A stretch of 64,000 nt of DNA from Vibrio rhizosphaerae (lineage in GTDB: Bacteria > Pseudomonadota > Gammaproteobacteria > Enterobacterales > Vibrionaceae). Positions 25,417-53,496 of the stretch are shown in pieces. Numbering within the stretch: position 1 is the first letter of the stretch; every line of letters starts with the position of its first letter. The position numbers were made by a program, and so were the translations under genes. The stretch lies in assembly GCF_024347095.1 (NCBI RefSeq), contig NZ_AP024903.1, positions 2,852,001-2,916,000 on the forward strand, read 5' to 3'. Under the pieces are notes generated by a model. It saw nothing but the letters and a program-made list of their open reading frames with translations. It was not told the DNA's origin and ran no database searches.

Positions 25417-25438
25417 AATATTCTCCTACGTTCACGTA

Positions 25439-25714: not shown

Positions 25715-25765
25715 AGATATGCTCCTCTTAGTCATGAAAGATGACGATTCATCTTTCAAAGCCGG

Positions 25766-25972: not shown

Positions 25973-26019
25973 CTTCCGGCTTCCTGCGCCATCCTGTGAC
26001 TGAGTTTCATATTAGGATG

Positions 26020-26042: not shown

Positions 26043-26084
26043 AACGGATGAATAATCACGGCTTATCCGGCAATAAAGCGGTGA

Positions 26085-36746: not shown

Positions 36747-38183
<1,437 letters not shown>

Positions 38184-38209: not shown

Positions 38210-38290
38210 AAAAAAAAACCTGAAAGAGTCACGTTCATATTTCGATGAACCGACCCTTTCAGGTTTTGCCCGCTTTCACGGTAACAATCC
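38210..38290 (-). promoter_or_regulatory. BglG/LicT-type RAT + terminator, PTS-proximal (element 1)
   Basis: Read leftward: RAT at 38290-38262 (GGATTGTTACCG ... CGGGCAAAACC). The RAT overlaps the 5' arm of a terminator hairpin AACCTGAAAG / CTTTCAGGTT, closed by a run of nine T. Binding of an antiterminator to the RAT would block the hairpin. It lies 42 bp upstream of the PTS start. Confidence 0.9.
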
Positions 38291-38309
38291 TAAAGTTTAA
38301 AAAGCCAAT

Positions 38310-38399
38310 AAAAAAACCTGACCATTCGAAGTCACCTTAAAGCGGCTTTATCACTTCGTCTGTGTCAGGTTTTGCCTGCATACCATGCAGTAGCAATCC
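38310..38399 (-). promoter_or_regulatory. BglG/LicT-type RAT + terminator, PTS-distal (element 2)
   Basis: Read leftward: RAT at 38399-38369 (GGATTGCTACTGC ... GCAGGCAAAACC) overlapping a terminator with outer arms AACCTGAC / GTCAGGTT and a T-run. It stands 20 bp upstream of element 1, so the PTS leader has two switches in series. Confidence 0.9.
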
Positions 38400-38456
38400 A
38401 ATATAAATCCGTTTTACCTGCTCTGATTCAATCAAACAATGAGGAACGATTGTGAT

Positions 38457-38472
38457 TGTGAGATCGATCAGG
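38457..38472. promoter_or_regulatory. CRP-like site upstream of PTS leader
   Basis: TGTGA-GATCGA-TCAGG, 8 of 10 matches to TGTGA-N6-TCACA. Its centre is about 65 bp before the RAT start. Similar spacing is seen before two sulfatase leaders. Confidence 0.45.
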
Positions 38473-38536
38473 TAATTGATTGCATTATTAGAAGCAGCGC
38501 AATTTTTCGCATGGGTGCGTGGCTTCAGATCTTCCG

Positions 38537-40444
38537 TTATACCTTATATTGTTCAATCTCATGGAATAGTTGCTTCGAAAGTTTCTCTAATTTATCCGCC
38601 TGAGTAATGCCCTGTGTGGACTCCGCTTTCAGTTGACCCGAAACCGATTTAATCGATTCCAGTTTTTGGCTGACATCACCGGTTACATGCGATTGTTCAT
38701 GGGATGCAGAAGTGATCTGTAACGTCATCTGACTCATTTCCCCAACCGATGTATTAATTTGATCAAGACATTTGCTGGTCGAAACCACATCTTCAACACA
38801 TTTTCCGGTCAAATCGTAACTGTTTTGCATCATGTTTGCGACTTGGCTGGTTGAGCCATGCAGCTTCTCGATTTTATCTTTAATTTCCTCGGTGGAGACA
38901 TGAGTCCGTTGAGACAACACCCGGACTTCATCAGCAACGACCGCAAAACCACGACCTTGCTCACCGGCTCTGGCCGCTTCAATCGCCGCATTTAATGCCA
39001 ACAGATTGGTTTGTTCGGCAATATCCCGGATCGTGACCAGAATGGACTCGATCTGCTGGCTGTCCTGCTCAAGCATCCGGATGTTATGAATCGATTTCTC
39101 CAGCTCTGCAGATAATTGCTGAATCGACGATTCACTTTTAGACATCCAGCCAACCCCATCATCACAAAGTTCCACACATTGACGACACGATTCCGAGGTT
39201 AATTCAGCATTTCGGTATACTTCAACGGCAGAGCTCGACAGCTCGGATACCGCAGCAGCGACCAATGTAATATTCTCCTCCTGTCCGGCGATCTCTTTGC
39301 CCTGATGCTCGGATGAATCCGAAATATGATGGGATTCTTCGGTTAATTGGCGTGTCACCTGATTGATATGCTTCACCAGAGAATGAATCCGATCAATAAA
39401 TGCATTGAAATTAGTCGCAAATTTACCGACTTCATCCTGACTATCGATTGGAATCCGCTTCGATAAATCCGCATCACCGGACGCAATATCCATCAGGGCA
39501 TCATTGACCTTATCAAATTTTTTGAAGATGCCGAAAACAAGCACACTGATGCCCAGAATACCGAACAGAATAATCCCGGTAGCAATCAATAACTGCTTGA
39601 TGAAATATTCATTGACTGGCTGATTAATCAGTGAATTTTCAACCGTAAAAACAAGGACCCACCCCATATCAGGCACAATGTAAGGAATAAGAGTAAACAC
39701 CCGGCCTTTTTTGGTCACTGATGTCCGAACGCCATGCTGCTCTGCAATTCTAAATAATTTTTCACCTGAGGATGTCGAATTAAATTCGGATAAGTTCTTC
39801 ATCACTAATTCAAGTTTCGGGTGGAAAATAATAAAACCATCCCGGTTGACTAACATGGCATCACTACCCGTCGGAACTTTGATCTGAAAAACTTCTTTCA
39901 TCAAACGCTGCAAAGACAGAGCCCCGGCAACGACACCTGAAAATTGACCATTAAGATAGAGTGGTGTGGAAATCGATATCATGAGTGACTTTGAATGCCC
40001 ATCTTTATAGGGCAAGGACACGAAATCAGAGCGGGTATTCAAGGCTTGCTTTAACCATTTCGTCTCACTGGTAAGAGAATCTGAATGAATCCCTTGGCTA
40101 AATTTCACATCGCCTTGCGTATCAATAAAATACAGGTCATCGAATCCCAGCTGTTTGAAGTGTTTTTTAAAGATGTCATTCACATCACGATCGGGGTTAT
40201 GGATGGTATCGCGGATAATTGCCAGATTATTCTGGTGCTGTTTCATCCAGTTTGAGATGATCTTTGAATGCGTTTCTAATAAGCCACGACTTTGTTCCAG
40301 CACAGCCTCTTTACGATTATGTTCAAAAGTCCCGTAACTCAGATAAGTTAGGATTGATGTGGTGATAATAATAAAAAAAGCCGATGTGAAGATTATTTTT
40401 GATTTCAAATTGAATTTAACGATATGAAAGAAACTCACATTCAT
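38537..40444 (-). CDS. methyl-accepting chemotaxis protein with dCache-type sensor
   Basis: 635 residues from the ATG at 40444, set by AGGATAAGGG; an upstream frame would add 20 residues. Transmembrane segment 1 about 15-36, periplasmic dCache-like domain ([43 protein letters not shown]), transmembrane segment 2 about 275-298, HAMP, then the signalling tip [20 protein letters not shown] and [18 protein letters not shown]. Its ligand is unknown but its leader carries the same RAT switch as the sulfatases, suggesting it senses a glycan or its breakdown product. No pentapeptide tether is seen at the C-terminus. Confidence 0.93.
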
Positions 40445-40612
40445 CACCCTTATCCTAAAGTCATTCAGCCATTTATCCCGATAATTAGCGGTCACAGGAT
40501 CCAATACACATCGATTTGTTCAATCATTGGTTTGTTCAATAAGCAGTTTATTCAATAACCTGTTTATTCAATAAACAGTGAGCTAAATATCAGTAACCGG
40601 TTTAAAACCCAC

Positions 40613-40688
40613 AAAAAAACCCAAACGAAAAGATCCCGGATCCGGAATATTTTTGTTTGGGTTTTGCCTGATTGAACAGTCACAATCC
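40613..40688 (-). promoter_or_regulatory. RAT + terminator upstream of the chemoreceptor (element 3)
   Basis: Read leftward: RAT 40688-40660 (GGATTGTGACTG ... CAGGCAAAACC), then a hairpin with outer arms AACCCAAAC / GTTTGGGTT and seven T. The loop holds a second hairpin around TCCGGATCCGGGA. It lies about 170 bp before the start codon. Confidence 0.9.
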
Positions 40689-41008
40689 GATGTCTGTGGT
40701 TACTTAACCCCAACAGGCGAAGCAACTAAACTACGTTCGAGTATTCACGGAAGTAATCATAGCGTCAATAACAGGCAATAAAAAAGTGATCAGGCACAAC
40801 AAACACAAATATAAAAGCGGAATTAATATCACATTTAGTTTAAATACGATGCAATAAATGGATCAGCGCCGACCCTCGCTTAATATGTATGACGTTGTCG
40901 GAACTCTGACGAATAGCCACACCGAATTTAAACCGCTCAATCCTGCCCAAAAACCGCCACGACTAAAGTCTGATGACGAATACCATGGTCATAAAAAGCA
41001 CTAAAATA

Positions 41009-41024
41009 TAGGATTTAGGTCACA
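41009..41024. promoter_or_regulatory. CRP-like site upstream of sulfatase 1 leader
   Basis: TAGGA-TTTAGG-TCACA, 8 of 10 matches to TGTGA-N6-TCACA, strong half nearest the gene. Its centre is about 66 bp before the RAT, the same spacing as at the PTS gene. Confidence 0.4.
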
Positions 41025-41082
41025 ATTAACTTAATTAACAATTGATGTTTTGAATACAGGCGCGTAGCTTTATTTCATTCAA

Positions 41083-41175
41083 GGATTGTAGCTACATTAC
41101 ATCATGTAGGTAGGCAAAACCTGAACCTGAGTTTCTTCGTGAAGATAGAGGATACTTAGGTTCAGGTTTTTTTTT
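41083..41175 (+). promoter_or_regulatory. RAT + terminator upstream of sulfatase 1 (element 4, long-loop variant)
   Basis: RAT at 41083-41121 begins GGATTGTAGCTAC and ends GTAGGTAGGCAAAACC. At 39 bases it is longer than the other seven (29-32). The extra length is a second CTACAT/ATGTAG stem. Terminator arms AACCTGAACCT / AGGTTCAGGTT lead into nine T. Confidence 0.88.
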
Positions 41176-41273
41176 GGCCTAAATCCGGCGGTCTCTGATG
41201 ATTCCGTACCCATTATTTTTGTTCTCTTTTTCTTTCAATGTGCACTGCAATATCATGTAAAGAAGGTAATACT

Positions 41274-42980
41274 ATGAAGAAGCTTGCTCCGACACTGATT
41301 GCGTTAGCCTGCGCACAGGCTATCGGTAGTTACGCAACGGCTGCCACACAATCCTCAGATTCATCATCGGCACAACGCCCTAATATTGTTTACATTATCG
41401 TCGATGACCAACGTTATGATGCGATGGGATTTATCAATCATGAGGCCGTTACACCCAATATGGACAAACTGGCCAAAAATGGGGTGTATTTTAAAAATGC
41501 ATTTGTCACGACATCTCTGAGCGGACCGAGCCGGGCAAGCATTCTGACCGGGATGTACGCGCACAATCACGGTATGGTCGACAACAATAAGAATCCGGAT
41601 GTATTCAAACTCCATTACTTCCCAGAAGAACTCAAAAAAGTCGGTTATCAGACAGGTTTCTTCGGTAAATGGCATTTCGGTGGCATTGAAGAGGAAGGTA
41701 AACCAGGATTTGCCGGTTTCGATCGCTGGGTCGGCTTTGTCGGTACCAACGCTCAGGGGAACTACTATCCGGTTGATATGTTCGGCAAACCTTCAATGCT
41801 CAATGTGGACGGTAAACTGGTTAAACAGAAAGGTTACATTACTGATGAATTGACCGATTACGCCATCAACTGGCTGGATCATCGCGATAAGAGTAAGCCT
41901 TTCATGCTTTACTTAGGTCACAAAGGGGTGCATGCCGACTTCCTGCCCGCACCGCGCCACTATGGAAAACTAGCCGGTAAAACGTTCAAAAAACCAGATA
42001 CTTATGCTAACACGGAGAAAAACTATAAAGGCAAACCGCGCTGGGTGAAAGACCAACGCAATAGCTGGCATGGCGTCGATTATCCGTATAATAGTAATCT
42101 GGATCTGGATCAGTTTAAACGCAATTACTACGAAACGCTGATGTCTGTCGATGACAGTGTCGGCCGGGTACAGCAGTATCTGAAAGAACATCATCTGGAT
42201 AAAAACACCGTGATCATGGTCATGGGTGATAATGGCTTTATGTTTGGTGAACATGGTTTGATCGACAAACGTAATGCCTACGAAGAATCCATCCGCGTGC
42301 CGCTGATCGCCGCAGGACCGGGCTTTGATAAAGGCCGAGTGGTTGAAGATGTCGTTGCCAATATTGATATTGCGCCAACCATTTTGGATGCAGCCCATAT
42401 CAAGATCCCGAATAATTATGACGGGTCTAGCTTCCTGCCGCTGGCTTCAGGCCACAAATCAACGACGCCGCGAAGCAAGTCTTTTGTCTATGAATATTTC
42501 TGGGAATACAACTTCCCTTATACACCGACAACATTTGCGATTCGTAATAGCCAGTATAAATATATTCAATACTATGGATTATGGGACACCGAAGAACTCT
42601 ATGATCTGAAGGCCGATCCGCATGAGAAACATAACCTGATCGACTCTCAGGAGCCCGATATCATTCGTACCAAGGTTGCACTCCGCAAAGAGTTGTTCCA
42701 GAAGCTGAAAAATCACGAAGGTAAAAATGTGATCCCTTACAACGAGCAACGCTCCAGAGGTCAAGTTTTCCGTTACAAAGCCACCGGTAAGAAAGCTGCA
42801 GACTTCCCGGATCAATGGATGCGTGACTATGATCCGGATGACAAATACTTTGGTTTGCGACCTGATATGGTAGACAAAGCCAAGAAACTAGCCCCACTTT
42901 CCGGTTCTTTAAAGCGTACGAAAGAATACATCAAGACGCACTATTTGATGAACCAGAAAAAAGAAGCAACTGAGAAGTAA
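41274..42980 (+). CDS. Ser-type sulfatase 1 (secreted), S1 family, GlcNAc-6-sulfatase-like
   Basis: 568 residues from the ATG at 41274 (AAGAAGG upstream); the preceding 12 codons are leader. Signal peptide to about residue 24. Metal site DDQRYDAMG (Asp44/45); nucleophile motif S83-G-P-S-R in place of Cys-x-Pro-x-Arg, which calls for maturation by an anSME; GKWHFGG; late metal Asp-Asn in VMGDNGFMFGEHGL. The sequence style (NIVYIIVDDQRYDAMG, SILTGMYAHNHG) is like N-acetylglucosamine-6-sulfatases, an inference. The first gene after a RAT switch and the CRP-like site. Acts in the periplasm or outside the cell. Confidence 0.92.
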   Translation: MKKLAPTLIALACAQAIGSYATAATQSSDSSSAQRPNIVYIIVDDQRYDAMGFINHEAVTPNMDKLAKNGVYFKNAFVTTSLSGPSRASILTGMYAHNHGMVDNNKNPDVFKLHYFPEELKKVGYQTGFFGKWHFGGIEEEGKPGFAGFDRWVGFVGTNAQGNYYPVDMFGKPSMLNVDGKLVKQKGYITDELTDYAINWLDHRDKSKPFMLYLGHKGVHADFLPAPRHYGKLAGKTFKKPDTYANTEKNYKGKPRWVKDQRNSWHGVDYPYNSNLDLDQFKRNYYETLMSVDDSVGRVQQYLKEHHLDKNTVIMVMGDNGFMFGEHGLIDKRNAYEESIRVPLIAAGPGFDKGRVVEDVVANIDIAPTILDAAHIKIPNNYDGSSFLPLASGHKSTTPRSKSFVYEYFWEYNFPYTPTTFAIRNSQYKYIQYYGLWDTEELYDLKADPHEKHNLIDSQEPDIIRTKVALRKELFQKLKNHEGKNVIPYNEQRSRGQVFRYKATGKKAADFPDQWMRDYDPDDKYFGLRPDMVDKAKKLAPLSGSLKRTKEYIKTHYLMNQKKEATEK

Positions 42981-42992
42981 CCTCCCCCACTC

Positions 42993-43020
42993 GCCCCGCT
43001 CCGGAACATCCGGGTGGGGC
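42993..43020 (+). terminator. hairpin after sulfatase 1
   Basis: GCCCC (42993) pairs with GGGGC (43020) and CCGG with CCGG inside, followed by TATTTA. Strong G/C stem, weak U tail, 12 bp after the stop codon. Confidence 0.6.
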
Positions 43021-43121
43021 TATTTACTGAGACTATCCGACCGCCTCCTGTCGCTCTCATTCAGAGAAAGCCCAGCGACTCAAATCACGGCAATCATCCT
43101 GTGCTCCTGAGCGAAAAAACA

Positions 43122-43149
43122 TAAAAAAAGGACTGCCGTAGCAATCCTT
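43122..43149 (-). terminator. rho-independent terminator of the sulfatase 2 operon
   Basis: Read leftward: AAGGATTGC, TACG tetraloop, GCAGTCCTT, then TTTTTTT. A 9-bp stem with one G-U pair and the very stable UACG loop. It lies 47 bp past the 176-residue gene, so it ends the transcript of sulfatase 2, anSME and that gene. Confidence 0.85.
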
Positions 43150-43195
43150 CTCTCTCATGATTGAAACCACAACTATAGGCAATCCGATGTCTTAT

Positions 43196-43726
43196 TTATT
43201 CCGCCAACCAAGGATACATCACCGCAATCAGAGTCCCCGTCTTATCATGACTCAAGGTCACCGAGTCAATACTCACACTCGGTATTTTCAGATAATCCTG
43301 AGGATAATGACCCCGCTCAACCCGCTCCTGTACCAACACGGTCGCCGTGTCATTTTGCAGCGCGCTATACGATGGCAGCTTCTCCCGGTAAAAGCGAATC
43401 ACCTGCTCAACGTCGGCCTCGGTTATAAAGGTCGCAAAAGGCAGAGTCTGGTCTAAGTCATCAAAGTTGATGCCATGATGTTTATGGACGACCATCAGCG
43501 CACCGGGATAAATCGGCAATGTCACGGTATCGACCGGCGCTTCTTGAATCTCGGGATTAATCCCCATCTGCTGACGCAATCTTGCCCGGGTTGTTTTCAG
43601 CGTCTGAGAAACCGCAGACTGCACCGATGCCGGAGCCGCCTTTACCGACTCTTGTGCCAGTGTCACCGGCGGCAGAGCAAACAGACCACTGAAGGCGAGG
43701 CTTGCGATATATACTCGTTTTTTCAT
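43196..43726 (-). CDS. periplasmic protein of unknown function in sulfatase operon
   Basis: 176 residues with a signal peptide (RVYIASLAFSGLFALPPVTLA). The mature part has an amphipathic Ala/Gln segment, then VDTVTLPIYPGALMVVHKHH, EADVEQVIRFYREKLPSYSA and SIDSVTLSHDKTGTLIAVMY. The 'YPGA ... VxxFYxxxLP' pattern resembles small periplasmic proteins seen in many proteobacteria, function unknown. It is the third gene of the sulfatase 2-anSME operon. Confidence 0.7.
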   Translation of the reverse strand: MKKRVYIASLAFSGLFALPPVTLAQESVKAAPASVQSAVSQTLKTTRARLRQQMGINPEIQEAPVDTVTLPIYPGALMVVHKHHGINFDDLDQTLPFATFITEADVEQVIRFYREKLPSYSALQNDTATVLVQERVERGHYPQDYLKIPSVSIDSVTLSHDKTGTLIAVMYPWLAE

Positions 43727-43786
43727 TAACTTACCTTTTATTACAACAAATCACCGCATTGACCGGCTGATGAGCCTCACGCCAAG

Positions 43787-44968
43787 TTAGGCACTCTGAA
43801 GAACCCGGCGGATAATTTCCTTCATCGGCGGAACGCAGTGGCTGAAATGAACTTTGTAGCCGTCACACAAATAGTTTTTATTCGGAATACCATTCGATGA
43901 AAGTGAGAAGCGATGTTTCGGACACCCACCATGGCAAACTGCTTTCACCGGACACTGCAGACAATCAACGGAGATATCCTTCGATTTACTTTGCGAAAAC
44001 TGGATCTGCTGTTCACTGTTAACCATCTTGAGCAGATTATTGTGGTGAATATTCCCCAGTTTATTGTCGGGAAAAACAAAGTGATCGCACGAATAGACAT
44101 CACCGTTCGCTTCTAATGCCAGATTGGCACCACACTCTTCAGAGAAAACACAACTGCCTTTACCACCGATAAGCTGGGTCATGGTCTGCTCAAAATTCAT
44201 CACAAAATACTGGCCGATGTCATGTTTCTGCCATTCGTCAAAAATGGTATTCAGAAAATGACCATAAGCGGCGGAAGGCACCGTCCACGGGGCAACCTGA
44301 CACGGATCTGAAAAGTCGGGCTTAATCAGGAACAGGCCGTTGGCATCCGCCTGATTGGCAATCCGCTCGACCAGCGGAATAAACTGCATGTAATGACTGC
44401 CGATGGCTTTTAAAGCACGGTAGACTTCCAGCGGTTCATGGACATTATGCTCACTGACTACTGTCAGCGTATTAAATTCGACTTGATATTTTTTCAATAA
44501 CTCAATGGCTTCAATCACCTTGTCATAAGTATTTTTGCCTGACTTCGTGCGCCGATAGCGATTATGATGCTCGGCGTTACCATCAATAGAAAGGCCGATC
44601 AGAAATTGATGACGGTGAAAAAATTTCGCCCAGCTCGGCGTCAGGTTCAGGCCATTGGTCTGGAAAAAGTTATTAATCTGTTTTCCCTGTGCATAACGCT
44701 GTTGATACGCCACTGCTTTTTCAAAAAACGCCAATCCAGCCAGAGTCGGTTCCCCGCCTTGCCAGATAAAGTCGATAACCGGTGCCGACTGGGATTCAAT
44801 ATTAGTTTTTACATAGTTTTTCAGCGTCTCTTCATCCATTTGCCAGTTCTGTTTCCGGCTCGGATAAAGTTTCTCCTTCTCCAGATAGAAACAGTATTCG
44901 CAATCAATGTTACACACGGAGCCGGTCGGCTTCGACAAGAGCTGAAAATTTTCAATCTGGTTTTGCAT
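43787..44968 (-). CDS. anaerobic sulfatase-maturating enzyme (radical SAM, anSME)
   Basis: 393 residues from the ATG at 44968 (GAGGA upstream). Radical-SAM cluster Cys19, Cys23 and Cys26 in CNIDCEYCFYLEKEKLY; IDFIWQGGEPTLAGLAFFEK; SIDGNAEHHNRYR; then a SPASM domain with auxiliary-cluster cysteines (CVFSEECGANLALE, GDVYSCDHFVFP, CLQCPVKAVCHGGCPKHRF). Converts the active-site Ser (or Cys) of sulfatases to formylglycine without oxygen. All four sulfatases in the window have Ser at that site, matching this enzyme. It lies 90 bp after sulfatase 2 and is probably co-transcribed. Confidence 0.95.
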   Translation of the reverse strand: MQNQIENFQLLSKPTGSVCNIDCEYCFYLEKEKLYPSRKQNWQMDEETLKNYVKTNIESQSAPVIDFIWQGGEPTLAGLAFFEKAVAYQQRYAQGKQINNFFQTNGLNLTPSWAKFFHRHQFLIGLSIDGNAEHHNRYRRTKSGKNTYDKVIEAIELLKKYQVEFNTLTVVSEHNVHEPLEVYRALKAIGSHYMQFIPLVERIANQADANGLFLIKPDFSDPCQVAPWTVPSAAYGHFLNTIFDEWQKHDIGQYFVMNFEQTMTQLIGGKGSCVFSEECGANLALEANGDVYSCDHFVFPDNKLGNIHHNNLLKMVNSEQQIQFSQSKSKDISVDCLQCPVKAVCHGGCPKHRFSLSSNGIPNKNYLCDGYKVHFSHCVPPMKEIIRRVLQSA

Positions 44969-45058
44969 CACAGTGTCCTCACGTATTCGATGAGACAGGG
45001 CCGTCATACCGACGACAGCCCTGATTCGCTTTGTTATTAATCTTTGTATTGAGACCCG

Positions 45059-46786
45059 TTATTGAAACGTGTAGCTCTGGCTTGCACTTTCTTTCCAACC
45101 ATATCTTACGGATTTGAATTCAATTTTATGTACCCCTTGCGGGACTTTGAGTGCCTTGGTATACAACTCCCAGTCTCCGTCATCAAATCGATAACCGATC
45201 GATGCGTTCTGAGTCCGGTTCACAATCGAAAATGTCTTGAATAATGGGTTGTAATGACCAAACGGTGCTGCTGTCACGCGCTGTTTACCGTCTTTATCCA
45301 GAATCTGTTTCACCATTTCAGACTCAGGCATCAGTGACATATCCACGGCACTGCCATCCCATGCAACCAAAGCCTGCCGCATGGTTGCAAGGACCGCTTT
45401 ATATTTAGGATCTTGTGCCAGATTATTCAGCTCATATGGATCATTCACCTTGTCATACAGCTCTTCCTGAGGGCGAGGTTCAAACCAGATTTTTTGCTGT
45501 TTGTTCAGATGGCCGGCGTCATGCTCCGCCTTCATCGATTGCATAATTCCCAGATTGTTACGGAAATTATTGTCATATCCTCCGGGGATTTCCGTATGCT
45601 CGTTATAGACATAACTATAGCGTGCATTCCGGACACTCCGCCCGTATTGAGGTACTCTATCGAAACGATCCCGCCCGGCATAGGTGTATTCGCGCACCGG
45701 GGCGTTATCTTTCGATAAATCGACCCCAGTCATATAGTCGGGCACCCGGCTGCCGGAAAACCCAAGAATGGTCGGGGCCAAATCTTCAAAAGAGACCAGA
45801 CGACTTTCTGTTTGACCGTTTTGTTTCCACCATGTAGGTCGATATTGCTTCGGTACATGCACCATGAACGGTACTTTCAGACCCGAATCATAAAGATCGC
45901 GTTTATGCCGCGGAATCCCATCGCCATGATCCGTTGTGACAATCAGAATGGTATTGTCCCAAAGCCCGTCTTTCTTCAGGCCCTGAACGATCTTACCAAC
46001 CATCTGGTCCATGACTTGGACGTTATCATAATGTCGGGCAATATCTCGTCTGACTTTCGGCGTATCAGGATAATAGGGTTCAAGCTTAACCGCATTCGGA
46101 TCGGTTGGCTCGATATTGTAATGGGTTCGCAACTTATCCCACCGATTGACCAGCCCCAGCCATTTTTTATCCAGCAGATCGTCCTTGCGGAAAATCCCTG
46201 ACTCATGCGTAATCTGTGGATTGAGGTGTAAGAAGAACGGTTTGTCATGAAGATCGTAGTTCCGCCACGCTGTCGGCACCATCAAATCATCCATACTTTT
46301 ATATGAGCCATGCTGATCCCACAACGTGAATGGCCCGATATTCATTGGTCCGCCAGAAAACTGATAGTCGGTTTTGGTATCGTTGTAAGTGAAATATCCG
46401 TTAGCACGAAGTAATTCAGGGTAGCCTTTGACTTGTGACTCTGGGACACCAATATATCCGCCACCGGGATAATTGGTCGTGCGCATATGCTGCAAGCCTA
46501 GAGTCTGAGGGAATCTGCCCGTAATCACACCCGCCCGGCTCGGTGCAGAGACCGGAGCCATGGCATACACCTGCTGGAATCGGACGCTTTCTTTTGCCAA
46601 GGCATCGATGTTCGGAGTTTTTGCAACCGAGTCCCCATAGACACCCCATCTAGGACTCAGATCTTCAGCCATAATCAGGACGATATTCGGTTTTTCAGAC
46701 TGTTTCTGTGCTGCAAAATCAACCGCATTGACCGTACCGCTGATACTGGCAGCTAACAATGTTAAAGCCAGGACATTTTTCTTCAT
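45059..46786 (-). CDS. Ser-type sulfatase 2 (secreted), S1 family, heparan-N-sulfatase-like
   Basis: 575 residues, signal peptide to about residue 22. Metal pair in LIMAEDLSPRWGVYG (Glu41-Asp42 here, Asp-Asp in most sulfatases); nucleophile motif S80-A-P-S-R; late pair in VTTDHGDGIPRHKRD, with His in place of the usual Asn. Motifs NDTKTDYQFSGG and LQHMRTTNYP occur in enzymes usually annotated as heparan N-sulfatases; substrate not proven. The C-terminus carries a beta-sandwich of about 70 residues (NRTQNASIGYRFDDGDWELY) that may bind carbohydrate. First gene of the operon with anSME. RAT element 5 stands upstream. Confidence 0.9.
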   Translation of the reverse strand: MKKNVLALTLLAASISGTVNAVDFAAQKQSEKPNIVLIMAEDLSPRWGVYGDSVAKTPNIDALAKESVRFQQVYAMAPVSAPSRAGVITGRFPQTLGLQHMRTTNYPGGGYIGVPESQVKGYPELLRANGYFTYNDTKTDYQFSGGPMNIGPFTLWDQHGSYKSMDDLMVPTAWRNYDLHDKPFFLHLNPQITHESGIFRKDDLLDKKWLGLVNRWDKLRTHYNIEPTDPNAVKLEPYYPDTPKVRRDIARHYDNVQVMDQMVGKIVQGLKKDGLWDNTILIVTTDHGDGIPRHKRDLYDSGLKVPFMVHVPKQYRPTWWKQNGQTESRLVSFEDLAPTILGFSGSRVPDYMTGVDLSKDNAPVREYTYAGRDRFDRVPQYGRSVRNARYSYVYNEHTEIPGGYDNNFRNNLGIMQSMKAEHDAGHLNKQQKIWFEPRPQEELYDKVNDPYELNNLAQDPKYKAVLATMRQALVAWDGSAVDMSLMPESEMVKQILDKDGKQRVTAAPFGHYNPLFKTFSIVNRTQNASIGYRFDDGDWELYTKALKVPQGVHKIEFKSVRYGWKESASQSYTFQ

Positions 46787-46828
46787 TTCCTATTCTCCTG
46801 AATAGTCAGCAAGTTGCATCGCCCAGAA

Positions 46829-46896
46829 ACAAAAAAACCCAAGCAAAGATATTTCTATCTCTGCTTGGGTCTTGCCTGTCGAAACAGTAACAATCC
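46829..46896 (-). promoter_or_regulatory. RAT + terminator upstream of sulfatase 2 (element 5)
   Basis: Read leftward: RAT 46896-46868 (GGATTGTTACTG ... CAGGCAAGACC), with AAGACC instead of AAAACC. Terminator arms ACCCAAGCA / TGCTTGGGT and seven T. The change in the RAT keeps its overlap with the terminator arm. It lies 43 bp before the gene. Confidence 0.9.
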
Positions 46897-46956
46897 GTGC
46901 GAATACAGCTAGCCTACGTTTCTATTGTGTAAATAGCAATTACGGGCCATTTTATC

Positions 46957-46972
46957 TGTGATTGCTATCGCC
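46957..46972. promoter_or_regulatory. CRP-like site upstream of sulfatase 2 leader
   Basis: TGTGA-TTGCTA-TCGCC, 8 of 10 matches to TGTGA-N6-TCACA. Its centre is about 68 bp before the RAT, close to the spacing at the PTS and sulfatase 1 leaders. Confidence 0.4.
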
Positions 46973-47055
46973 TTTCTTCGGTAATCAACCCTGATGAATA
47001 AAACCACCGGAATAAACCATTTCCGGTGGCAATCATCTCAGTGCACCGATAGAAC

Positions 47056-48207
47056 TTAAAAATTAAACCGGGACTCGAGATACATCTGATCGTCACCTTT
47101 ATCACTCATGACTTCAGAAATTGCGATGGTGGTTCTACGATTGATAAAATACTTCAGTTGAAGTTCAAAAGCTTTATCAAGCTCATCCACATTCACAATG
47201 ATCGTCGGAGAGAATCCTTCACCGTTTTCAGGAAGCAGGCTGTAGGTTACATTCGCAGATGCACCCAGCCCTTTGGTGGCATATCCTTGGTTACGGATAA
47301 TATCGCCATTTTCATGATCATCCATTTTCGAATAAGAGAAGTTCCAGGACATACGTTGTGCCTTCGCAAACTGCTTATACCCGTAGAATGTATAAGTCAG
47401 CAAATTCTTATCGGTCCGTTCAAAGTTAGTATCAGAATTGGAGTGGTAAGAATCTTTGGTCTTCGCGCCGCGATTCCCCATGATTCCCTTACTACCGACA
47501 AAAAGACCCGGCTGACCATTATGAACCGCCAGATAGGCACCGTAGGAATCAGCTTCATACGAATAAATATCTGCCGTCTGATAACCGAAATCCATCCCCA
47601 TAATGTCAGAATCTACATCGTAGGAAGCATACACATACAGGTTATTGTCATAGTGGCTGTCGTAAATAATTTTCCCTGCATTTTTTATCCCTCTTTCTGA
47701 CTGGTTGTTATACAAACCCGTCACAGCGACATCGTTGGAGAACGAGGCCATCGTCGCTGTATATTTACCATAGCCCAGAAAGCCCCATACAGAATCTTCA
47801 AAACCGACTCGGAATTGGTCAATCTTCTGCTTATCATCAAAATTATCGAAACGATCGATGACCTTATTATTTTCATCAGCCCAATTTTCCTGAGCCTCCA
47901 ACCGCACATCACCGACAAACCCGATCCGATCGGTCAGGGCAGTATAGCCCCGCATGCGCATCATCACTTTAAAATAAGCTTTTTCATAATCAGTGTGATC
48001 CGTTGATGTGTTATAGCCGCCTTTTAAGAAGCCGTTAAAATACCACCGGGAATTTTTATCTAGGTTGGTTAAAGGCTCGATTGTTGAACCTATTTTCTTA
48101 TAGTTTTTGACAATATCGGAGTCCCATTTGGTTGTGTCACTCTTTGCATAAACATTATGACTTAGCCCACATGCTATCGCGAATGCTAAAATTGTAATAT
48201 TCTTCAT
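47056..48207 (-). CDS. outer-membrane porin
   Basis: 383 residues from the ATG at 48207 (AGGGG upstream); a longer frame runs into the leader and is discarded. Signal peptide NITILAFAIACGLSHNVYA. The mature protein alternates aromatic/hydrophobic and polar residues in about 16 strands (GFLKGGYNTSTDHTDYEKAY, VYASYDVDSDIMGMDFGYQ) and ends in YLESRFNF, the C-terminal Phe that directs outer-membrane insertion. Not an OmpF/OmpC copy; closest in style to Gram-negative specific porins such as chitoporin-like channels. RAT element 6 lies just upstream, so it probably admits the oligosaccharide used by the locus. Confidence 0.85.
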   Translation of the reverse strand: MKNITILAFAIACGLSHNVYAKSDTTKWDSDIVKNYKKIGSTIEPLTNLDKNSRWYFNGFLKGGYNTSTDHTDYEKAYFKVMMRMRGYTALTDRIGFVGDVRLEAQENWADENNKVIDRFDNFDDKQKIDQFRVGFEDSVWGFLGYGKYTATMASFSNDVAVTGLYNNQSERGIKNAGKIIYDSHYDNNLYVYASYDVDSDIMGMDFGYQTADIYSYEADSYGAYLAVHNGQPGLFVGSKGIMGNRGAKTKDSYHSNSDTNFERTDKNLLTYTFYGYKQFAKAQRMSWNFSYSKMDDHENGDIIRNQGYATKGLGASANVTYSLLPENGEGFSPTIIVNVDELDKAFELQLKYFINRRTTIAISEVMSDKGDDQMYLESRFNF

Positions 48208-48227
48208 ATCTTTCAAACCCCTATTAA

Positions 48228-48296
48228 TAAAAAAACCCGCCAGACGGTTATAAATAACCATCTGGCGGGTTTTGCCTGCAAATACAGTAGCAATCC
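48228..48296 (-). promoter_or_regulatory. RAT + terminator upstream of the porin (element 6)
   Basis: Read leftward: RAT 48296-48268 (GGATTGCTACTG ... CAGGCAAAACC), terminator with a long stem AACCCGCCAGA / TCTGGCGGGTT and a T-run. It ends about 20 bp before the start codon. A lone TGTGA half-site sits about 53 bp upstream. Confidence 0.9.
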
Positions 48297-48522
48297 AAGA
48301 ACAATAATAAATAAATATTCTAAAATAAAAACCCATTGATACATTTAATGTGATTTAAAGCAAGAAATATTTTTATCAATAAAAATGAATTACAATATGA
48401 ACACAATGACACTTCAACAAAAAGTCAAAGAATGGGGTTATTTAAGCATGCCATTAAATAAAAATATCAAAGCAGAAAAAGAATGAAGATAATTCCTTCA
48501 TCCTTTTTCTGACTCATTCGAT

Positions 48523-50028
48523 TTAATTATTAGGATTAAATAATGGCGCTTTAGGCTTCGGCATATTCTCTTTAAATTGCTTCGCCGCCGACAGAACTTT
48601 TGCCAACACTTTCGGAGAACTTTGTGCAAGGTTCGTTGTTTCACTCGGATCATCTTTGAGGTTGTACATGGTCGGTTCATTCAACCAAACAATCCCTTTT
48701 CTACCTTTACGTTCACCGAAGACAACCTTATAGTCACCCATCCTAAATGCCGTAAACTGCCCCAGAACATAATAAGGCATGATCGTTCTGGCACTCTTAT
48801 CCCCTTTCAACCATGTTTTACTGATATCAAATCCATCGAGATCTTTGACCGGATGATGGGTGCCAGTAAGAGACATAATTGTCGGCAGGATATCCAGCGT
48901 ACTACCGATGCCATCAACGACTTCATTTTTCAGATGACCTTTCCAGTTGACGATAAACGGCACTCTCATTCCGCCTTCATACTGGGTACCTTTCGCATCT
49001 CTCAAATTTCCTTTTTGGCCAGCCAGCCCCCATTTGTTCCACATCCACCAAGGGCCATTATCTGAAGTGAACATCACGATGGTATTATCCGCCATCCCTT
49101 GTTTTTCCAGCTGATCCATGATTTGTCCGACCGACCAGTCAATTTCCAGCAAGATATCACCATAGCGGTTGTGACCTTTACCGACAAACTCAGGTGAACC
49201 AAACAAAGGGGTATGCGTCTGCGGATAAGACATGAACATGAAAAATGGATTTTTTTGGTTCTTATGATCGGCAATATAATCTTTGGCACGACTGGTAATA
49301 TCTTTGGTAAAGGTTGCCTGTTTCATACCGCCGGGAACCTTATAATCAATATATTTGCCGTTGATAGTATCTTTGGACTCATAAGACATATACAAAGGGA
49401 CATCCCAGTATTCTTGCTTCGGCAGAATATAAGCAGGCATGCCCTTCACCCAGGCATCATGTGCCGCTTTCAGATCCTTTTTCATCAACGCATTCATTTC
49501 TAACTGATTTGGTGTGAGCGTTGAATAACGGTCATTACTGGCAGGAATACCATACCACCAGTCAAATCCATGACGAGTCGGAAACGAGTCAGAATTGCTG
49601 CCCAAATGCCATTTCCCGTACATCACCGTGTCATAACCATTGGTCTTGAGTGAGTCGGCGATCGTAACTTCGGAGTTCGGGAAACCATCCGGGTCACCTT
49701 CAATAAATACCCCCGGCGCAGTTGTACCATATAGGCCGGTTTTGGGCCCTAACCTTCCGGTTAACAGACCGCCGCGACTCGGAGAAGAAATCGGTGAACT
49801 CACATAAAAGTTTGTCCAGCGCTGGCCGGTATTGGCAAGTTTGTCCAAGTTTGGCGTTGGGGTTTTACTGCCTTGCAAGCCAATGTCCGCCCACCCCATA
49901 TCGTCAGTAAATAAAATAATAACATTGGGTTTTTCTGCGGCATGCTGACTTGCCATGGCTGAAGGCGTCAGACTGGCCAGACTGGCAATCGCAACGCTCA
50001 CTCCGATTGCAATATTTTTTATCTTCAT
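48523..50028 (-). CDS. Ser-type sulfatase 3 (secreted), arylsulfatase-like
   Basis: 501 residues, signal peptide to about residue 27. Metal site TDDMGWADIG; nucleophile motif S81-S-P-S-R; GKWHLGSNSDSFPTRHGFD; late pair in FTSDNGPWWMWNKWG. The overall style is that of arylsulfatases (AtsA-like). Glycan target unknown. Leader contains RAT element 7, but 428 bp separate that element from the start codon. Confidence 0.93.
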   Translation of the reverse strand: MKIKNIAIGVSVAIASLASLTPSAMASQHAAEKPNVIILFTDDMGWADIGLQGSKTPTPNLDKLANTGQRWTNFYVSSPISSPSRGGLLTGRLGPKTGLYGTTAPGVFIEGDPDGFPNSEVTIADSLKTNGYDTVMYGKWHLGSNSDSFPTRHGFDWWYGIPASNDRYSTLTPNQLEMNALMKKDLKAAHDAWVKGMPAYILPKQEYWDVPLYMSYESKDTINGKYIDYKVPGGMKQATFTKDITSRAKDYIADHKNQKNPFFMFMSYPQTHTPLFGSPEFVGKGHNRYGDILLEIDWSVGQIMDQLEKQGMADNTIVMFTSDNGPWWMWNKWGLAGQKGNLRDAKGTQYEGGMRVPFIVNWKGHLKNEVVDGIGSTLDILPTIMSLTGTHHPVKDLDGFDISKTWLKGDKSARTIMPYYVLGQFTAFRMGDYKVVFGERKGRKGIVWLNEPTMYNLKDDPSETTNLAQSSPKVLAKVLSAAKQFKENMPKPKAPLFNPNN

Positions 50029-50456
50029 GTTTTGAGTACCTTATTTATATCAATTTTATACCAAGTATTATTAGTGAATACTTTATATGGTTATATATGC
50101 TCAATGCTGACATGAGTGATATATAGCACAAGTAAAATACCTTTAAAAAATAACGCACACGTCAGAGACTCTGCTTATAAAAACAGTCTTCTCTGATATC
50201 AATACATCAATATTTTTATCCCATAATGTATTTACATATACTTATATTTAATAAACTATGCTGTTTCTATACACCTTGTCTCTTAAGCAAACAGATTAAT
50301 AAAAGTCCTCACAAGGCACCTTGACACTCAATAAAAATAATCACACTCGATAACGACCGAAATCATTAAAAAATGAACACCCTATTTGCTTCATTCATTC
50401 TATTTCAGTTTAAAGTCACAGTATTAATATCAAGTTCTGTTTACTTTATTTAAAAT
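50029..50456 (-). other. long 5' leader of sulfatase 3
   Basis: About 430 bp of AT-rich sequence between the sulfatase 3 start and RAT element 7. No gene or clear hairpin seen. Either the transcript has a very long untranslated leader or a second promoter lies inside it. Confidence 0.45.
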
Positions 50457-50550
50457 AAAAAAAAACCTAAATCCAATCAAATCCAAATAATAACGCTCAA
50501 TCGGATCTGATTGGATTTAGGTCTTGCCTGCAACCCTGCAGTAACAATCC
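50457..50550 (-). promoter_or_regulatory. RAT + terminator upstream of sulfatase 3 (element 7)
   Basis: Read leftward: RAT 50550-50520 (GGATTGTTACTGC ... GCAGGCAAGACC), again with AAGACC. It overlaps a long terminator stem, ACCTAAATCCAATCA on one side and TGATTGGATTTAGGT on the other, followed by a T-run. Same architecture as the other elements. Confidence 0.9.
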
Positions 50551-50617
50551 ATATTCGCAATCAATATAATTTTAAAATAACAACTAATTTAAGCGAAGCA
50601 AATACAATCTACCAGAT

Positions 50618-50633
50618 TGTGATATGTATCGAT
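50618..50633. promoter_or_regulatory. weak CRP-like site upstream of sulfatase 3 leader
   Basis: TGTGA-TATGTA-TCGAT, 7 of 10 matches to TGTGA-N6-TCACA. Its centre is about 75 bp before RAT 7, roughly one helical turn farther than at the PTS gene. Confidence 0.3.
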
Positions 50634-50812
50634 AAACAGAAAAGTAAGCCACAGTTAATGTGATCATCAGCATGTTTTGACTTCATTTTCTTGACTAGTC
50701 TATTGAAAAGATAAAATTATTAGCTCTATTTTTATCATTAAGCAACATCAGTGTCCTACCCATGTTTATATTTTTGGCAACGACACAAATACACTAAAAT
50801 ACTGATTTTAAA

Positions 50813-50884
50813 GGATTGTTACTGTACATCGTACAGGCAAAACCTGAATGAGCAAGAATACCAGGCTCATTCAGGTTTTTTTTT
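50813..50884 (+). promoter_or_regulatory. RAT + terminator upstream of sulfatase 4 (element 8)
   Basis: RAT 50813-50844 (GGATTGTTACTGTAC ... GTACAGGCAAAACC), a perfect match to the bgl-type RAT ends. Terminator arms AACCTGAATGAGC / GCTCATTCAGGTT and nine T. It lies 140 bp before the start codon. Confidence 0.92.
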
Positions 50885-51024
50885 GGCACAAATCAGGACA
50901 TAGCACCGCACTCATGTAATGACTGATAAGAAGATCACTTCGCTTTTTATGAATCATAAGCATCTTTTGTGCGAATGAATAATGTTCATGTTGTTTTCAT
51001 CCATTCTCATAAGAGAAATTAAAG

Positions 51025-52485
51025 ATGCCCATGACTAAATTAAGAAAATCTCCTTTGGCACTTGCAATATACATGATGGCAGCACCTGTGTTTGCTACAT
51101 CAACCAATACAGAACAAGAGAGTCAACCAAACGTATTGATGATCGTCGTCGACGATCTGGCTTTACCGGATATCTCTGCTTACGGGCATGATCTGGCACC
51201 AACACCAAACATCGATAAGCTTGCTCAAGACGGAGTCCTGTTTACCAATGGTTATGTCGCAGCATCGGTTTCAGCCGTTTCTCGGGCTGCGATTCTCACG
51301 GGACGCTCACCACAACGTTTCGGTTTTACTTACAATATTCATGACAAAAAAGATGCGGACAAAGGCTTACCGGCTGATGTACCAACGATCGGTGAGCGAC
51401 TCAAAACACACGGTTATAACACCAATGCTATCGGTAAATGGCATCAGGGGTTCAACGACGAGTTTTACCCGACCAACCGGGGGTTTGATGACTTCTACGG
51501 CTTCCTGACCGGTGAATCCATTTATGCCAGTCAAAATACACCGGGAATCGTGACAACCCCCACCAAATTTGACGCCCGAAAAAAAATGTCTTACGACCAT
51601 CGCGAGCCGCGTCAAAGTGTATTCAAAGGGAAAGAACGGAAAGTTGTCAACAATCTGAATAAATACTTAACTGATGATTTTACTGATGTCGCGATTCAAT
51701 ATCTGAATAGCCAAGAGGATAAGAAAAACCCATTTTTCCTCTATCTGGCTTATAACGCGCCCCACTATCCGCTACAGGTACCACAAAATTATTACGACAA
51801 ATTCAGTGATATCAAAGATCCGGTCAGACGCACGTATGTCGCCATGATCAGTAATCTGGATGACAATATAGGTCGTGTCATGGAAACACTGGAAAAAACC
51901 GGACAAGATAAAAATACGATGATCTTCTTTGTTTCCGACAATGGGTGTCCGATCCAATTCGGATTCTGCGACTGTAGTGACCCCCTAGGCTCCGGCAAAT
52001 TTACCTATGTTGAGGGTGGCGTTCATGTACCGTACATCTTTAGCTGGAAAGGAAAAGTTAAGCCGAATCAACGCGTTGAATCTCCGGTTTCATCTATCGA
52101 TATGGTGTCGACCATTCTGTCTCATGTGGAAAAAAATAAAGATCTTCCCGCTGAACTCGACGGACTGGATCTCCTCTCGGTTATCAACGAGCCCGAAGCA
52201 TATAGCGACCGAAAACTCTTCTTCTCTCAGACACCATTGCACGCAATGCGGGACGGTAAATACAAGCTTTGGATCTCCGACGACCAACAAAGCACAGAAC
52301 TTTACGATCTGGAGAAAGATTCAGGAGAGCTGCACAACATCGCCACTGAGCATCCGGAGATCACGCAAAAAATGCAAAAAGCGCTTCAACAATGGAATCA
52401 AGAAAATCCAAAACCGTTGTGGAATATGCATCGCACTTTCCCCGGCTGGAAAACCTGTACAAAAGATACGGAAGGCGTTTATTAA
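51025..52485 (+). CDS. Ser-type sulfatase 4 (secreted), divergent nucleophile motif
   Basis: 486 residues (an ATG two codons later is also possible). Signal peptide to about residue 25. Metal site VVDDLALPDISAYG; nucleophile motif S83-A-V-S-R, with Val where Pro or Ala is usual; GKWHQGFNDEFYPTNRGFD; late pair FFVSDNGCPIQFGFCDCSD, a Cys-rich insertion unlike the other three. Expected to be matured by the anSME of this locus. Whether the Val change still allows maturation is untested. Confidence 0.9.
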   Translation: MPMTKLRKSPLALAIYMMAAPVFATSTNTEQESQPNVLMIVVDDLALPDISAYGHDLAPTPNIDKLAQDGVLFTNGYVAASVSAVSRAAILTGRSPQRFGFTYNIHDKKDADKGLPADVPTIGERLKTHGYNTNAIGKWHQGFNDEFYPTNRGFDDFYGFLTGESIYASQNTPGIVTTPTKFDARKKMSYDHREPRQSVFKGKERKVVNNLNKYLTDDFTDVAIQYLNSQEDKKNPFFLYLAYNAPHYPLQVPQNYYDKFSDIKDPVRRTYVAMISNLDDNIGRVMETLEKTGQDKNTMIFFVSDNGCPIQFGFCDCSDPLGSGKFTYVEGGVHVPYIFSWKGKVKPNQRVESPVSSIDMVSTILSHVEKNKDLPAELDGLDLLSVINEPEAYSDRKLFFSQTPLHAMRDGKYKLWISDDQQSTELYDLEKDSGELHNIATEHPEITQKMQKALQQWNQENPKPLWNMHRTFPGWKTCTKDTEGVY

Positions 52486-52509
52486 CACCATCTCGCCTAG
52501 ACATACCGT

Positions 52510-52537
52510 TGTGTAACCATTTTCGGATGGTTACACA
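52510..52537. terminator. bidirectional terminator-like hairpin between sulfatase 4 and the MarR-GNAT gene
   Basis: TGTGTAACCAT / ATGGTTACACA, a perfect 11-bp stem with a TTTCGG loop. It lies between two convergent genes. No strong T-run on either side. Confidence 0.55.
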
Positions 52538-52554
52538 CACAGAAATGATTTAAT

Positions 52555-53496
52555 TTAAGGGTGAGCTCTCATAAAACGTAATTCAGTCATCGCTTTTCCC
52601 CATTGCTCACCCACGTATTGTTCAATACGTGAAAACCCATATTTCTCGTAGAGATGGTGCGCAGCTTCCAGCCCTTCAACAGTGTACAGATGCGTTTCAT
52701 CAAAACCCGATGCATCCACGAATGCTAAAGCAGCCGTCAGAAGCTGATGGCCGACACCGGTTCCTCTGGCTTTGTCATCCACAATAAACCAGCGTAAATG
52801 AGCTTTCCCCGGCCCTAAATCTTCTCCGTCAATGGCAATCGAGCCTACAATCTCTTCACCCAGTTTGGCGACCCATATTTCATTGTGAGCATGATCTAAA
52901 CGGCCACAAAACTCCGCGAGCCCGCTTGCGACCGCAGATTCAAATGGCTGCCCAAAGCCAGTTTCTCTTGAATAATAAGCGCTATGCATTGCCGTTATTT
53001 GGGCAATCAGGCCATGACAATAGCCCGTGGATATTTTAATTTCAGGACGCCGATTGGCGACACTCAATCGGCCGGATAAAGCATCCGCATACAACTGAAG
53101 CCCGTCGATAATCGTTTTTTCTTGCTGCCGATTCAGGTGGTTGAGCGCTTCAATCACCTGATGTTGTGCAAACGCATGTATGGCAGCGACCCGTTTTTGC
53201 CCGGCGGGAGTGAGTTTCAGTTGTTTACTTCGGGCATCACGGGTATGAGGCTCTTCTTGAATATCCCCGGTGGCCATGAGTTTACGTAACATCCGACTGA
53301 CAGATGATTTTTCTAATTGAAGACAATCACTTAAATAACGCGCAGTGACACTCTCACCATTTTCGATCTCCATTAAAGCATGCACAGCAGAAGGCGATAA
53401 ATCGGTTCCTGCAAATGGTCCACCCATAAATCCGAGCTGTCGAACCAGCTGTCGTGATGATGCACGAATCGCATCGATATCTGAATTTGAAATCAT
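52555..53496 (-). CDS. MarR-GNAT fusion protein (bifunctional regulator/N-acetyltransferase)
   Basis: 313 residues. Residues about 1-145 are a MarR winged helix (LSPSAVHALMEIENGESVTA, LQLEKSSVSRMLRKLMATGD, DARSKQLKLTPAGQK). Residues about 155-313 are a GNAT acetyltransferase (EIWVAKLGEEIVGSIAIDGE, LRWFIVDDKARGTGVGHQLL, HLYEKYGFSR). Such fusions couple DNA binding to small-molecule acetylation. A perfect palindrome overlaps the promoter, suggesting autoregulation. Probably leftward single gene. Confidence 0.9.
   Translation of the reverse strand: MISNSDIDAIRASSRQLVRQLGFMGGPFAGTDLSPSAVHALMEIENGESVTARYLSDCLQLEKSSVSRMLRKLMATGDIQEEPHTRDARSKQLKLTPAGQKRVAAIHAFAQHQVIEALNHLNRQQEKTIIDGLQLYADALSGRLSVANRRPEIKISTGYCHGLIAQITAMHSAYYSRETGFGQPFESAVASGLAEFCGRLDHAHNEIWVAKLGEEIVGSIAIDGEDLGPGKAHLRWFIVDDKARGTGVGHQLLTAALAFVDASGFDETHLYTVEGLEAAHHLYEKYGFSRIEQYVGEQWGKAMTELRFMRAHP

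Follow-up and report, generated by a model that had tools for sequence, protein, structure and literature searches.

BglG-type antitermination is a textbook local switch that serves one or a few sugar operons. A 64,000-nt stretch of the Vibrio rhizosphaerae genome (assembly GCF_024347095.1; positions 2852001-2916000 of contig NZ_AP024903.1, C1 in the following), hereafter the window, raises the question of why the RNA element of this switch, the ribonucleic antiterminator (RAT), should occur eight times in front of sulfatase, porin, chemoreceptor and phosphotransferase system (PTS) genes, with no antiterminator gene in the window itself. Analysis of the whole genome (4.56 Mb on two contigs, C1 and C2) points with high confidence to the answer that these eight leaders belong to a set of 13 RAT antiterminator/terminator switches, which would be read in trans by a single BglG/LicT-type protein encoded at C1:989598.

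A first-pass annotation of the window had described elements of the form GGATTGTTACTG ... CAGGCAAAACC ahead of four sulfatase genes (SulfA to SulfD), the porin gene, the chemoreceptor gene and, in tandem, the gene for the PTS enzyme II EIIBC, and all eight are found in the sequence. The overlap of RAT and terminator arms claimed for each was likewise confirmed, as the 3' ACC of every RAT opens the 5' arm of a hairpin that is followed by an oligo-T tail. Scored with R1, a covariance model built from eleven such elements, the two leaders of the EIIBC tandem on the minus strand (EIIBC R1: 38310..38399, RAT 38399-38367; EIIBC R2: 38210..38290, RAT 38290-38261) reach 43.2 and 42.5 bits, respectively. 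The same strand carries the leaders of the chemoreceptor (40613..40688, RAT 40688-40659; 40.6 bits), of SulfB (46831..46896, RAT 46896-46867; 41.3 bits), of the porin (48229..48296, RAT 48296-48267; 43.2 bits) and of SulfC (50457..50550, RAT 50550-50519; 42.5 bits), and in both the SulfB and the porin leader one stem pair is altered on both sides among relatives. On the plus strand lie the leaders of SulfA (41083..41175, RAT 41083-41122; 34.9 bits), which has a long loop and a CTA/TAG upper stem, and of SulfD (50813..50884, RAT 50813-50845; 42.3 bits). When mismatches were allowed, each RAT half alone showed only mild enrichment in the window: one half gave 72 matches where 54.7 were expected (a number reached in 2 of 100 shuffles), the other 35 where 19.8 were expected (reached in 1 of 100). 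The strength of the signal consequently lies in the composite element, which alone was used.

A covariance-model scan of the whole genome, as the first-pass annotation had proposed, identified 13 RATs on both contigs (scores were computed for 150 of 3347 first-look candidates), all at E≤2.9e-6, with the next best candidate at E=8.9. Since the EIIBC pair stands in tandem, these 13 RATs make up 12 leaders. The regulon as first described thus holds for its window part but was drawn too small, as it also includes two maturases, a glycoside hydrolase family 1 (GH1) gene and esterases. The five further R1 matches precede bglG (C1:989492, plus strand), a second radical S-adenosylmethionine (rSAM)/SPASM maturase, rSAM2 (C1:993879, minus strand), a carboxylesterase (C1:2363910, minus strand), the GH1 gene (C2:33316, plus strand) and another carboxylesterase (C2:38026-38096, plus strand; L023:12027-12097). 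The exact gapped pattern has ten matches in the genome and none in the reversed genome; it misses the SulfA and bglG leaders and the long-loop RAT of C2. By R1, the conserved two-part RAT hairpin is present in all 13, with 15 invariant columns across 11 elements (alignment A3), and a same-strand open reading frame (ORF) of at least 140 aa begins within 500 nt of each. CRP-like sites at p≤0.03 were found in eight of the 13 upstream regions; for bglG, SulfA, SulfB and EIIBC R1 they occupy positions -65 to -68 relative to the RAT. Their combined p value of 2.7e-6 covers all 13 regions, of which those of EIIBC R1 and R2 overlap, and they hint at catabolite control in a suggestive manner only.

Conservation among relatives supports both halves of the switch. 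A clade alignment of 110 RATs from 59 sources (85 distinct rows), which was fitted to the structure, shows standard pairs in 97.5% of 752 pair cells and 50 cells changed on both sides, compared to 10.1 in shuffles (none of 500 as high). In a MAFFT alignment of the first 11 RATs, 98% of 99 cells are paired; six cells are changed on both sides (again unmatched in 500 shuffles), as are three pairs (11 of 500 shuffles as high). Weaker measures aside, the RAT stem is therefore retained by covariation in both alignments. A terminator starting in the 3' arm of the RAT was identified for 104 of the 110 clade RATs and for 13 of 13 in this genome, whereas mononucleotide shuffles gave one in 255 of 2200 cases. 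By this test a terminator is lacking for six RATs, namely those before bglF in G204, G211, G224 and G318 (genomes are given by sample number) and the weakly scoring ones in G156 and G198. Among 59 orthologous leaders in 13 sets, 972 of 996 terminator stem cells are paired, scored on structures that were derived from the same sequences, and the number drops to 30-52%, with 0-4 pairs changed on both sides, when the stems are slid by one to three columns as a control. Eleven terminator pairs are changed on both sides (five in the bglG set, none in six of the 13 sets) and 27 on one side. The predicted hairpin strength ranges from -15 to -38 kcal/mol in 12 of the 13 leaders, the chemoreceptor hairpin reaching -15.1 kcal/mol as consensus.

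The first-pass annotation had noted the absence of a BglG-type protein from the window and had made its reading dependent on such a gene elsewhere in the genome. That gene exists: CAT_RBD matches are confined to C1:989 kb and C1:443 kb, and PRD matches occur at these two places and at C1:1010 kb, where the protein has no CAT_RBD match. Both CAT_RBD genes, located at C1:989598 and C1:443105, encode two PRDs. The C1:989598 protein (CAT_RBD 83.6 bits, cut-off 25) aligns with solved LicT chains, and H103, H162, H210 and H272 match the aligned PRD histidines, which we take to be the phosphorylation sites; one of the LicT chains used for this alignment carries substitutions at some of them. Its gene is preceded by the regulon RAT GGATTGCGAATGCACAAGCATGCAAAACC, in which a C-G pair of the upper stem is replaced by A-U, and is directly followed by a gene for a 672-aa EIIBCA (BglF, C1:990 kb), beyond which the RAT-controlled maturase rSAM2 is encoded convergently.

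As is established for the family and summarised in two papers, the enzyme II inactivates its antiterminator by phosphorylation when substrate is lacking, while in the presence of substrate the antiterminator binds the RAT and prevents formation of the terminator (PMC1489936; PMC12502629). For the regulon described here we infer BglG binding, read-through and phosphorylation control of the following kind. Without substrate, BglF would phosphorylate and inactivate BglG, and transcripts begun upstream of each RAT would stop at the overlapping terminator. Uptake of a beta-glucoside would relieve BglG, which would then bind each RAT and block the terminator arm, so that transcription could pass all twelve leaders. 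The genes opened in this way would comprise bglGF, EIIBC (behind two switches in series), the chemoreceptor, the porin, the four sulfatases, the RAT-led maturase, the GH1 glucosidase and the two carboxylesterases, with the second maturase opened behind SulfB. Sulfate (and acyl) groups would be removed from decorated beta-glucosides in the periplasm, followed by phosphorylation and import through the PTS, and the inducing signal would be the sugar's own uptake.

The sulfatases of this set all match PF00884 over the cut-off, and three of the four carry the C/S-x-P-x-R motif of S1 formylglycine sulfatases. These are SulfA (41238..42980, plus strand; S95-G-P-S-R), with the N-acetylglucosamine (GlcNAc)-6-sulfatase 5g2v as best solved match, SulfB (45059..46786, minus strand; S80-A-P-S-R), closest to S1_8A, and the arylsulfatase A-like SulfC (48523..50028, minus strand; S81-S-P-S-R), for which arylsulfatase A itself is the best solved match. 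SulfD (51025..52485, plus strand) has the variant motif S-A-V-S-R and is closest to S1_19. The N-termini appear secretion-like by eye, and the Ser-type motifs of three of the four enzymes fit with maturases of the anaerobic type. The two maturases that similarity to rSAM2 revealed in the genome both lie within the regulon: the anaerobic sulfatase maturase rSAM1 (43787..45007, minus strand; TIGR03942, 485 bits against a cut-off of 349) by its position behind SulfB, and rSAM2, a Radical_SAM plus SPASM protein that is 40% identical to it. The SulfB run ends with a hypothetical protein (43196..43726, minus strand) for which no Pfam family was found over the cut-off; weak relatives (34-39%) are located between SulfA and the rSAM gene in G224 and G204. 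EIIBC (36747..38168, minus strand) is of the beta-glucoside type and lacks a IIA domain, matching only PTS_EIIB and PTS_EIIC in Pfam and, below the cut-off, PRK09824 as best NCBIfam entry. The chemoreceptor, a methyl-accepting chemotaxis protein (38537..40504, minus strand, start codon uncertain; Pfam MCPsignal, dCache_1 and HAMP), has a dCache ligand domain. The porin (47056..48207, minus strand) has no Pfam match; its AlphaFold model is a trimeric-porin-like barrel (mean predicted local distance difference test score 70, residues 1-48 below 50), with OmpF, OmpC, OmpU and Vibrio chitoporin among the 50 listed matches in the PDB (E 1.6e-11 to 7e-9, template modelling score ~0.5).

The most likely task of the regulon is the stripping of sulfate and acyl groups off decorated beta-glucosides for uptake by the PTS. 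Beta-glucoside PTS transporters phosphorylate the C6 hydroxyl, and the removal of sulfate, acyl or rhamnosyl groups would thus make such sugars transportable, an "unmasking" that we infer for the recruited enzymes. Feeding on a sulfated polysaccharide of the glycosaminoglycan or carrageenan kind, in place of small sulfated or acylated beta-glucosides, is a serious though less probable alternative. Each of the four sulfatases falls close to a different group, namely GlcNAc-6-sulfatase, S1_8 (a group that includes N-sulfamidases), arylsulfatase A and S1_19 (carrageenan), as would suit a glycan sulfated at several positions, and the porin and the chemoreceptor would suit oligosaccharides. Against a polysaccharide, neither a lyase nor an endo-acting glycanase was found when the first gene following each of the genome's 13 RATs was considered, and the GH1 and EIIBC genes of G262 adjoin a sulfatase gene. 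RAT targets in the clade point the same way, as they include beta-glucoside PTS, GH1 and esterase genes, supplemented in G211, G224 and G318 by GH3, GH78 alpha-rhamnosidase and GH42 (Pfam assignments of one protein each). The recurrent targets are bglG, bglF, EIIBC, GH1, porin and carboxylesterase genes. Similar N-termini occur behind RATs in G204, G224 and G318. A sulfated flavonoid glucoside of seagrasses as the substrate is only an idea; one paper places luteolin sulfates in Zostera and Thalassia (PMC9318810).

Co-occurrence among 226 genomes of the genus (R1 threshold E≤1e-4) ties the RATs to the antiterminator. R1 RATs are present in 15 genomes and a CAT_RBD gene in 17, which include all 15 (15 of 15 RAT genomes carry the gene, compared to two of the other 211; Fisher p=1.4e-21, uncorrected for kinship). 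The two additional carriers, G156 and G198, have weak variants of 25 bits before bglF-like genes. A single CAT_RBD gene accompanies several RATs in G135 (three), G155 (three), G204 (seven, one of them before a SulfA orthologue), G211 (six) and G254 (six), and G224 combines four CAT_RBD genes with nine RATs. In the family, the exact pattern occurs in 17 of 329 genomes, and G274 was recovered only by R1. The exact-pattern matches of G134, G199 and G253 consist of one identical 27-mer in genomes with neither an R1 match nor a CAT_RBD gene and were treated as unrelated. A class-wide R1 scan found RATs in one of 369 genomes, namely this one; as 19 candidates per genome were scored and 12 of the 13 known RATs recovered, little was drawn from it.

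A cross-talk network, in which both antiterminators, or the one at 443 kb, read the leaders, appears improbable in the light of these genomes. Each of the two proteins consists of a CAT_RBD and two PRDs, they are 37% identical, and RATs of related antiterminators can cross-react, as in Bacillus. The 443-kb operon (GH1, EII and antiterminator; L009, minus strand, from 10959) is preceded by a clearly different RAT, GGGCGTTACC..GGGCGAAACC, which is conserved in four genomes, and R1 found no convincing match at this locus (best 9.3 bits). The RNA-binding loop, as compared in the N-termini, reads VALGNGIGW in the 443-kb protein and VVMGKGIGF in the 989-kb protein. The 13 leaders are assigned to the latter because its own leader carries the regulon RAT while the 443-kb leader and loop differ, so that the 443-kb operon is apparently insulated from the regulon. 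Together with the shared RAT class of the leaders, their co-occurrence with the gene and the five RAT-bearing genomes with a single CAT_RBD gene, this favours the earlier suggestion that one trans-acting antiterminator probably reads all leaders. In the clade, RATs fall into three classes; another variant, GGCGTGTTACTG..CAGGCAAGACC, was observed in G161 and G302, which have a third antiterminator gene, at the loci of that gene (L177:2502, plus strand; L178:9322, minus strand). A reading in which the leaders serve as constitutive attenuators or as ordinary 5' terminators fixing low expression, or answer to some other factor, with the RAT likeness a mere relic, is very improbable: the strong hairpins (-15 to -38 kcal/mol) would end most transcripts regardless, but RAT sequence and stem were kept by compensatory changes while the flanks drifted, and RATs are confined to genomes with a CAT_RBD gene among the 226 scanned.

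Genomic linkage is evidence that the cassette, maturase, PTS and GH1 genes may form one pathway. The sulfatase-chemoreceptor-porin cassette is present in G000, G161, G162 and G234, although SulfD is RAT-led in G000 and G234 alone. In all four of these cassette-bearing genomes, the unlinked maturase next to bglF is present at 91-100% identity. The sister strain G254 lacks the 13.7 kb corresponding to window positions 38831-52551 (chemoreceptor to SulfD), and a 154-bp piece from the 3' part of the chemoreceptor gene abuts window position 52552. This remnant at the junction makes it likely that the cassette was lost, and in the same genome only two short, decayed pieces of the unlinked maturase remain. 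In G302, where the cassette is absent at that place, no near relative of this maturase was found. SulfA orthologues (at least 70% identity) occur in seven of the 226 genomes, this one included. G262, which has no CAT_RBD gene, carries EIIBC, GH1, SulfA and the maturase rSAM1 in one same-strand run, with a gene for a LamB-type porin further along; no RAT was found in this run (best R1 score 14.8 bits, inside SulfA). In G204, the order is RAT, SulfA, hypothetical protein and maturase, followed by another chemoreceptor. G234 and G254 likewise carry tandem RATs before EIIBC, with more distant cases in G135, G155, G274 and G296, and the EIIBC R2 element is present in six clade genomes. An extra module beside bglG in G161 and G162 consists of tandem RATs, a porin gene and then a sulfatase gene (L127:8957-12227; L132:9021-10405).

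Several points weigh against the proposed regulon, beginning with the fit of the clade alignment to the structure and the scoring of the terminators on structures of their own. In the clade alignment, two of five covariation measures show no excess (four pairs with changes on both sides compared to 3.2 in shuffles; ten further pair types compared to 10.3), and further types are not in excess in the MAFFT alignment of 11 either (169 of 500 shuffles as high). None of the eight window elements matches RF03530 (bglG-cis-reg), an Rfam family of the same kind of element, at its gathering score of 80; at a relaxed score, two are weakly matched at 30.4 and 29.5 bits and six have no listed match, so by the Rfam criterion they are not members of this family. 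The SulfC RAT lies about 490 nt from the SulfC start codon, four of the eight CRP-like sites are located at -107 to -137, and the sulfatase homologies point to several kinds of sugar sulfates. The EIIBC leader of G161, G162 and G302 has a single RAT instead of a tandem. RAT control of the sulfatase is also not universal, given that the SulfA-hypothetical-maturase operon of G224 has no RAT and is adjoined by a divergent LysR gene.

With its RAT in G204 and without it in G224, the same SulfA operon has gained or lost RAT control, and together with its place in the PTS-GH1 run of the BglG-less G262 it provides a case for studying gain and loss of RNA operators. It is tempting, though still tentative, to regard the RAT-terminators as portable, genome-wide operators, through whose gain or loss separately promoted genes would join or leave the beta-glucoside regulon. 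The enzymes recruited here (a sulfatase of 6-O type, further sulfatases and esterases) and in sister species (GH78 rhamnosidase, GH3 and GH42) would uncover the hydroxyl that the PTS phosphorylates. One post-initiation switch would thereby join foraging by means of the chemoreceptor, passage of the outer membrane, desulfation together with the maturases it needs, and uptake in a single product-induced decision, with a two-switch gate before EIIBC in this species.

The machinery is classical; its scale, targets and modular evolution are not. The locus resembles BglG/bgl of Escherichia coli and LicT/bglPH of Bacillus subtilis in the CAT_RBD-PRD-PRD architecture, the overlap of RAT and terminator, the adjacent beta-glucoside enzyme II, the GH1 gene and the autoregulated leader, and the E. 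coli bgl operon also includes a porin gene. Although built from Vibrio elements, R1 also has matches at EIIBC loci in Pantoea, in Erwinia and in many Bacillota. Among 80 named EIIBC loci of up to 21 kb, 24 have no R1 match, 27 have one, 27 have two, one has three and that of V. ruber, which belongs to this clade, has five; these are counts of RATs, not of the genes behind them. Unlike such bgl/LicT loci, with zero to two RATs in 78 of 80, the present genome has 13, distributed over two contigs and associated with sulfatases, maturases, esterases and a chemoreceptor.

The earlier statement that BglG control is known for single operons has to be updated with respect to size. The nearest large regulon is that of NagY of Enterococcus faecalis, also of the BglG family, whose reported direct targets number 26 and comprise, among others, polysaccharide lyases, PTS genes and regulators (PMC12502629). 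Of these, 23 have a putative RAT that came from a permissive motif search (FIMO, p<0.01, within 200 bp), and additional RAT candidates in E. coli and B. subtilis are described as not tied to terminators or as mostly not overlapping them (PMC12502629). In the Vibrio genome, by contrast, every RAT overlaps a terminator, and the targets include sulfatases, maturases and a chemoreceptor. The available part of PMC12502629 names neither a sulfatase nor a chemoreceptor among the targets of NagY, and no report of either under BglG-type antitermination was found among the papers listed in the open-licence PMC literature. The same literature yielded nothing on V. gazogenes with a sulfatase. A pneumococcal island is similar in that a sulfatase and a sulfatase modifying factor are linked to a cellobiose-type PTS, together with a ROK protein; its transcripts go up upon deletion of the ROK protein, and the word "antiterminator" does not occur in the paper (PMC3283741).

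Judged from the sequences, it is very probable that one RNA-binding protein that senses sugar acts through thirteen closely similar hairpins on both chromosomes to switch on the complete set of functions by which sulfated beta-glucosides are located, desulfated, imported and split. This range exceeds what is usually known of true terminator switches under proteins of this kind. If this is true, a BglG switch has evolved into a true regulon across two chromosomes, of a size usual for DNA-binding regulators, and a likely role can be assigned to a set of marine sulfatases. The strong, terminator-overlapping sites can be tested singly. They provide a system for asking how one RNA-binding protein serves many leaders, how RAT specificity separates paralogous antiterminators, and how RNA operators are gained and lost.

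Some minor observations concern single elements and their surroundings. The RAT at C2:38026 measures 71 nt, and its loop holds an extra stem whose sequence varies among relatives. A further GGATTGCTACGG at 43147-43136 on the minus strand was rejected as a RAT, as it reads as a piece of the terminator behind the SulfB operon, and two matches to microRNA families at the relaxed Rfam score were taken as hairpin noise. The chemoreceptor ORF behind a RAT in G162 (L133, RAT 8002-7973, minus strand) is possibly broken, with 296 aa compared to 633-655 aa in the three other cassette genomes. The cassette is bordered at window positions 52555-53496 (minus strand) by a gene for a MarR plus GNAT domain protein, and in G254 this DNA still adjoins the deletion scar. 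A 1628-aa ORF (L010:2-4888), which by eye resembles a nonribosomal peptide synthetase, ends about 4.7 kb ahead of bglG. Elsewhere in the window, alignment to relatives gave multiple matches within positions 23286-27711, where several internal direct repeats, each of ~255-262 bp, are located.

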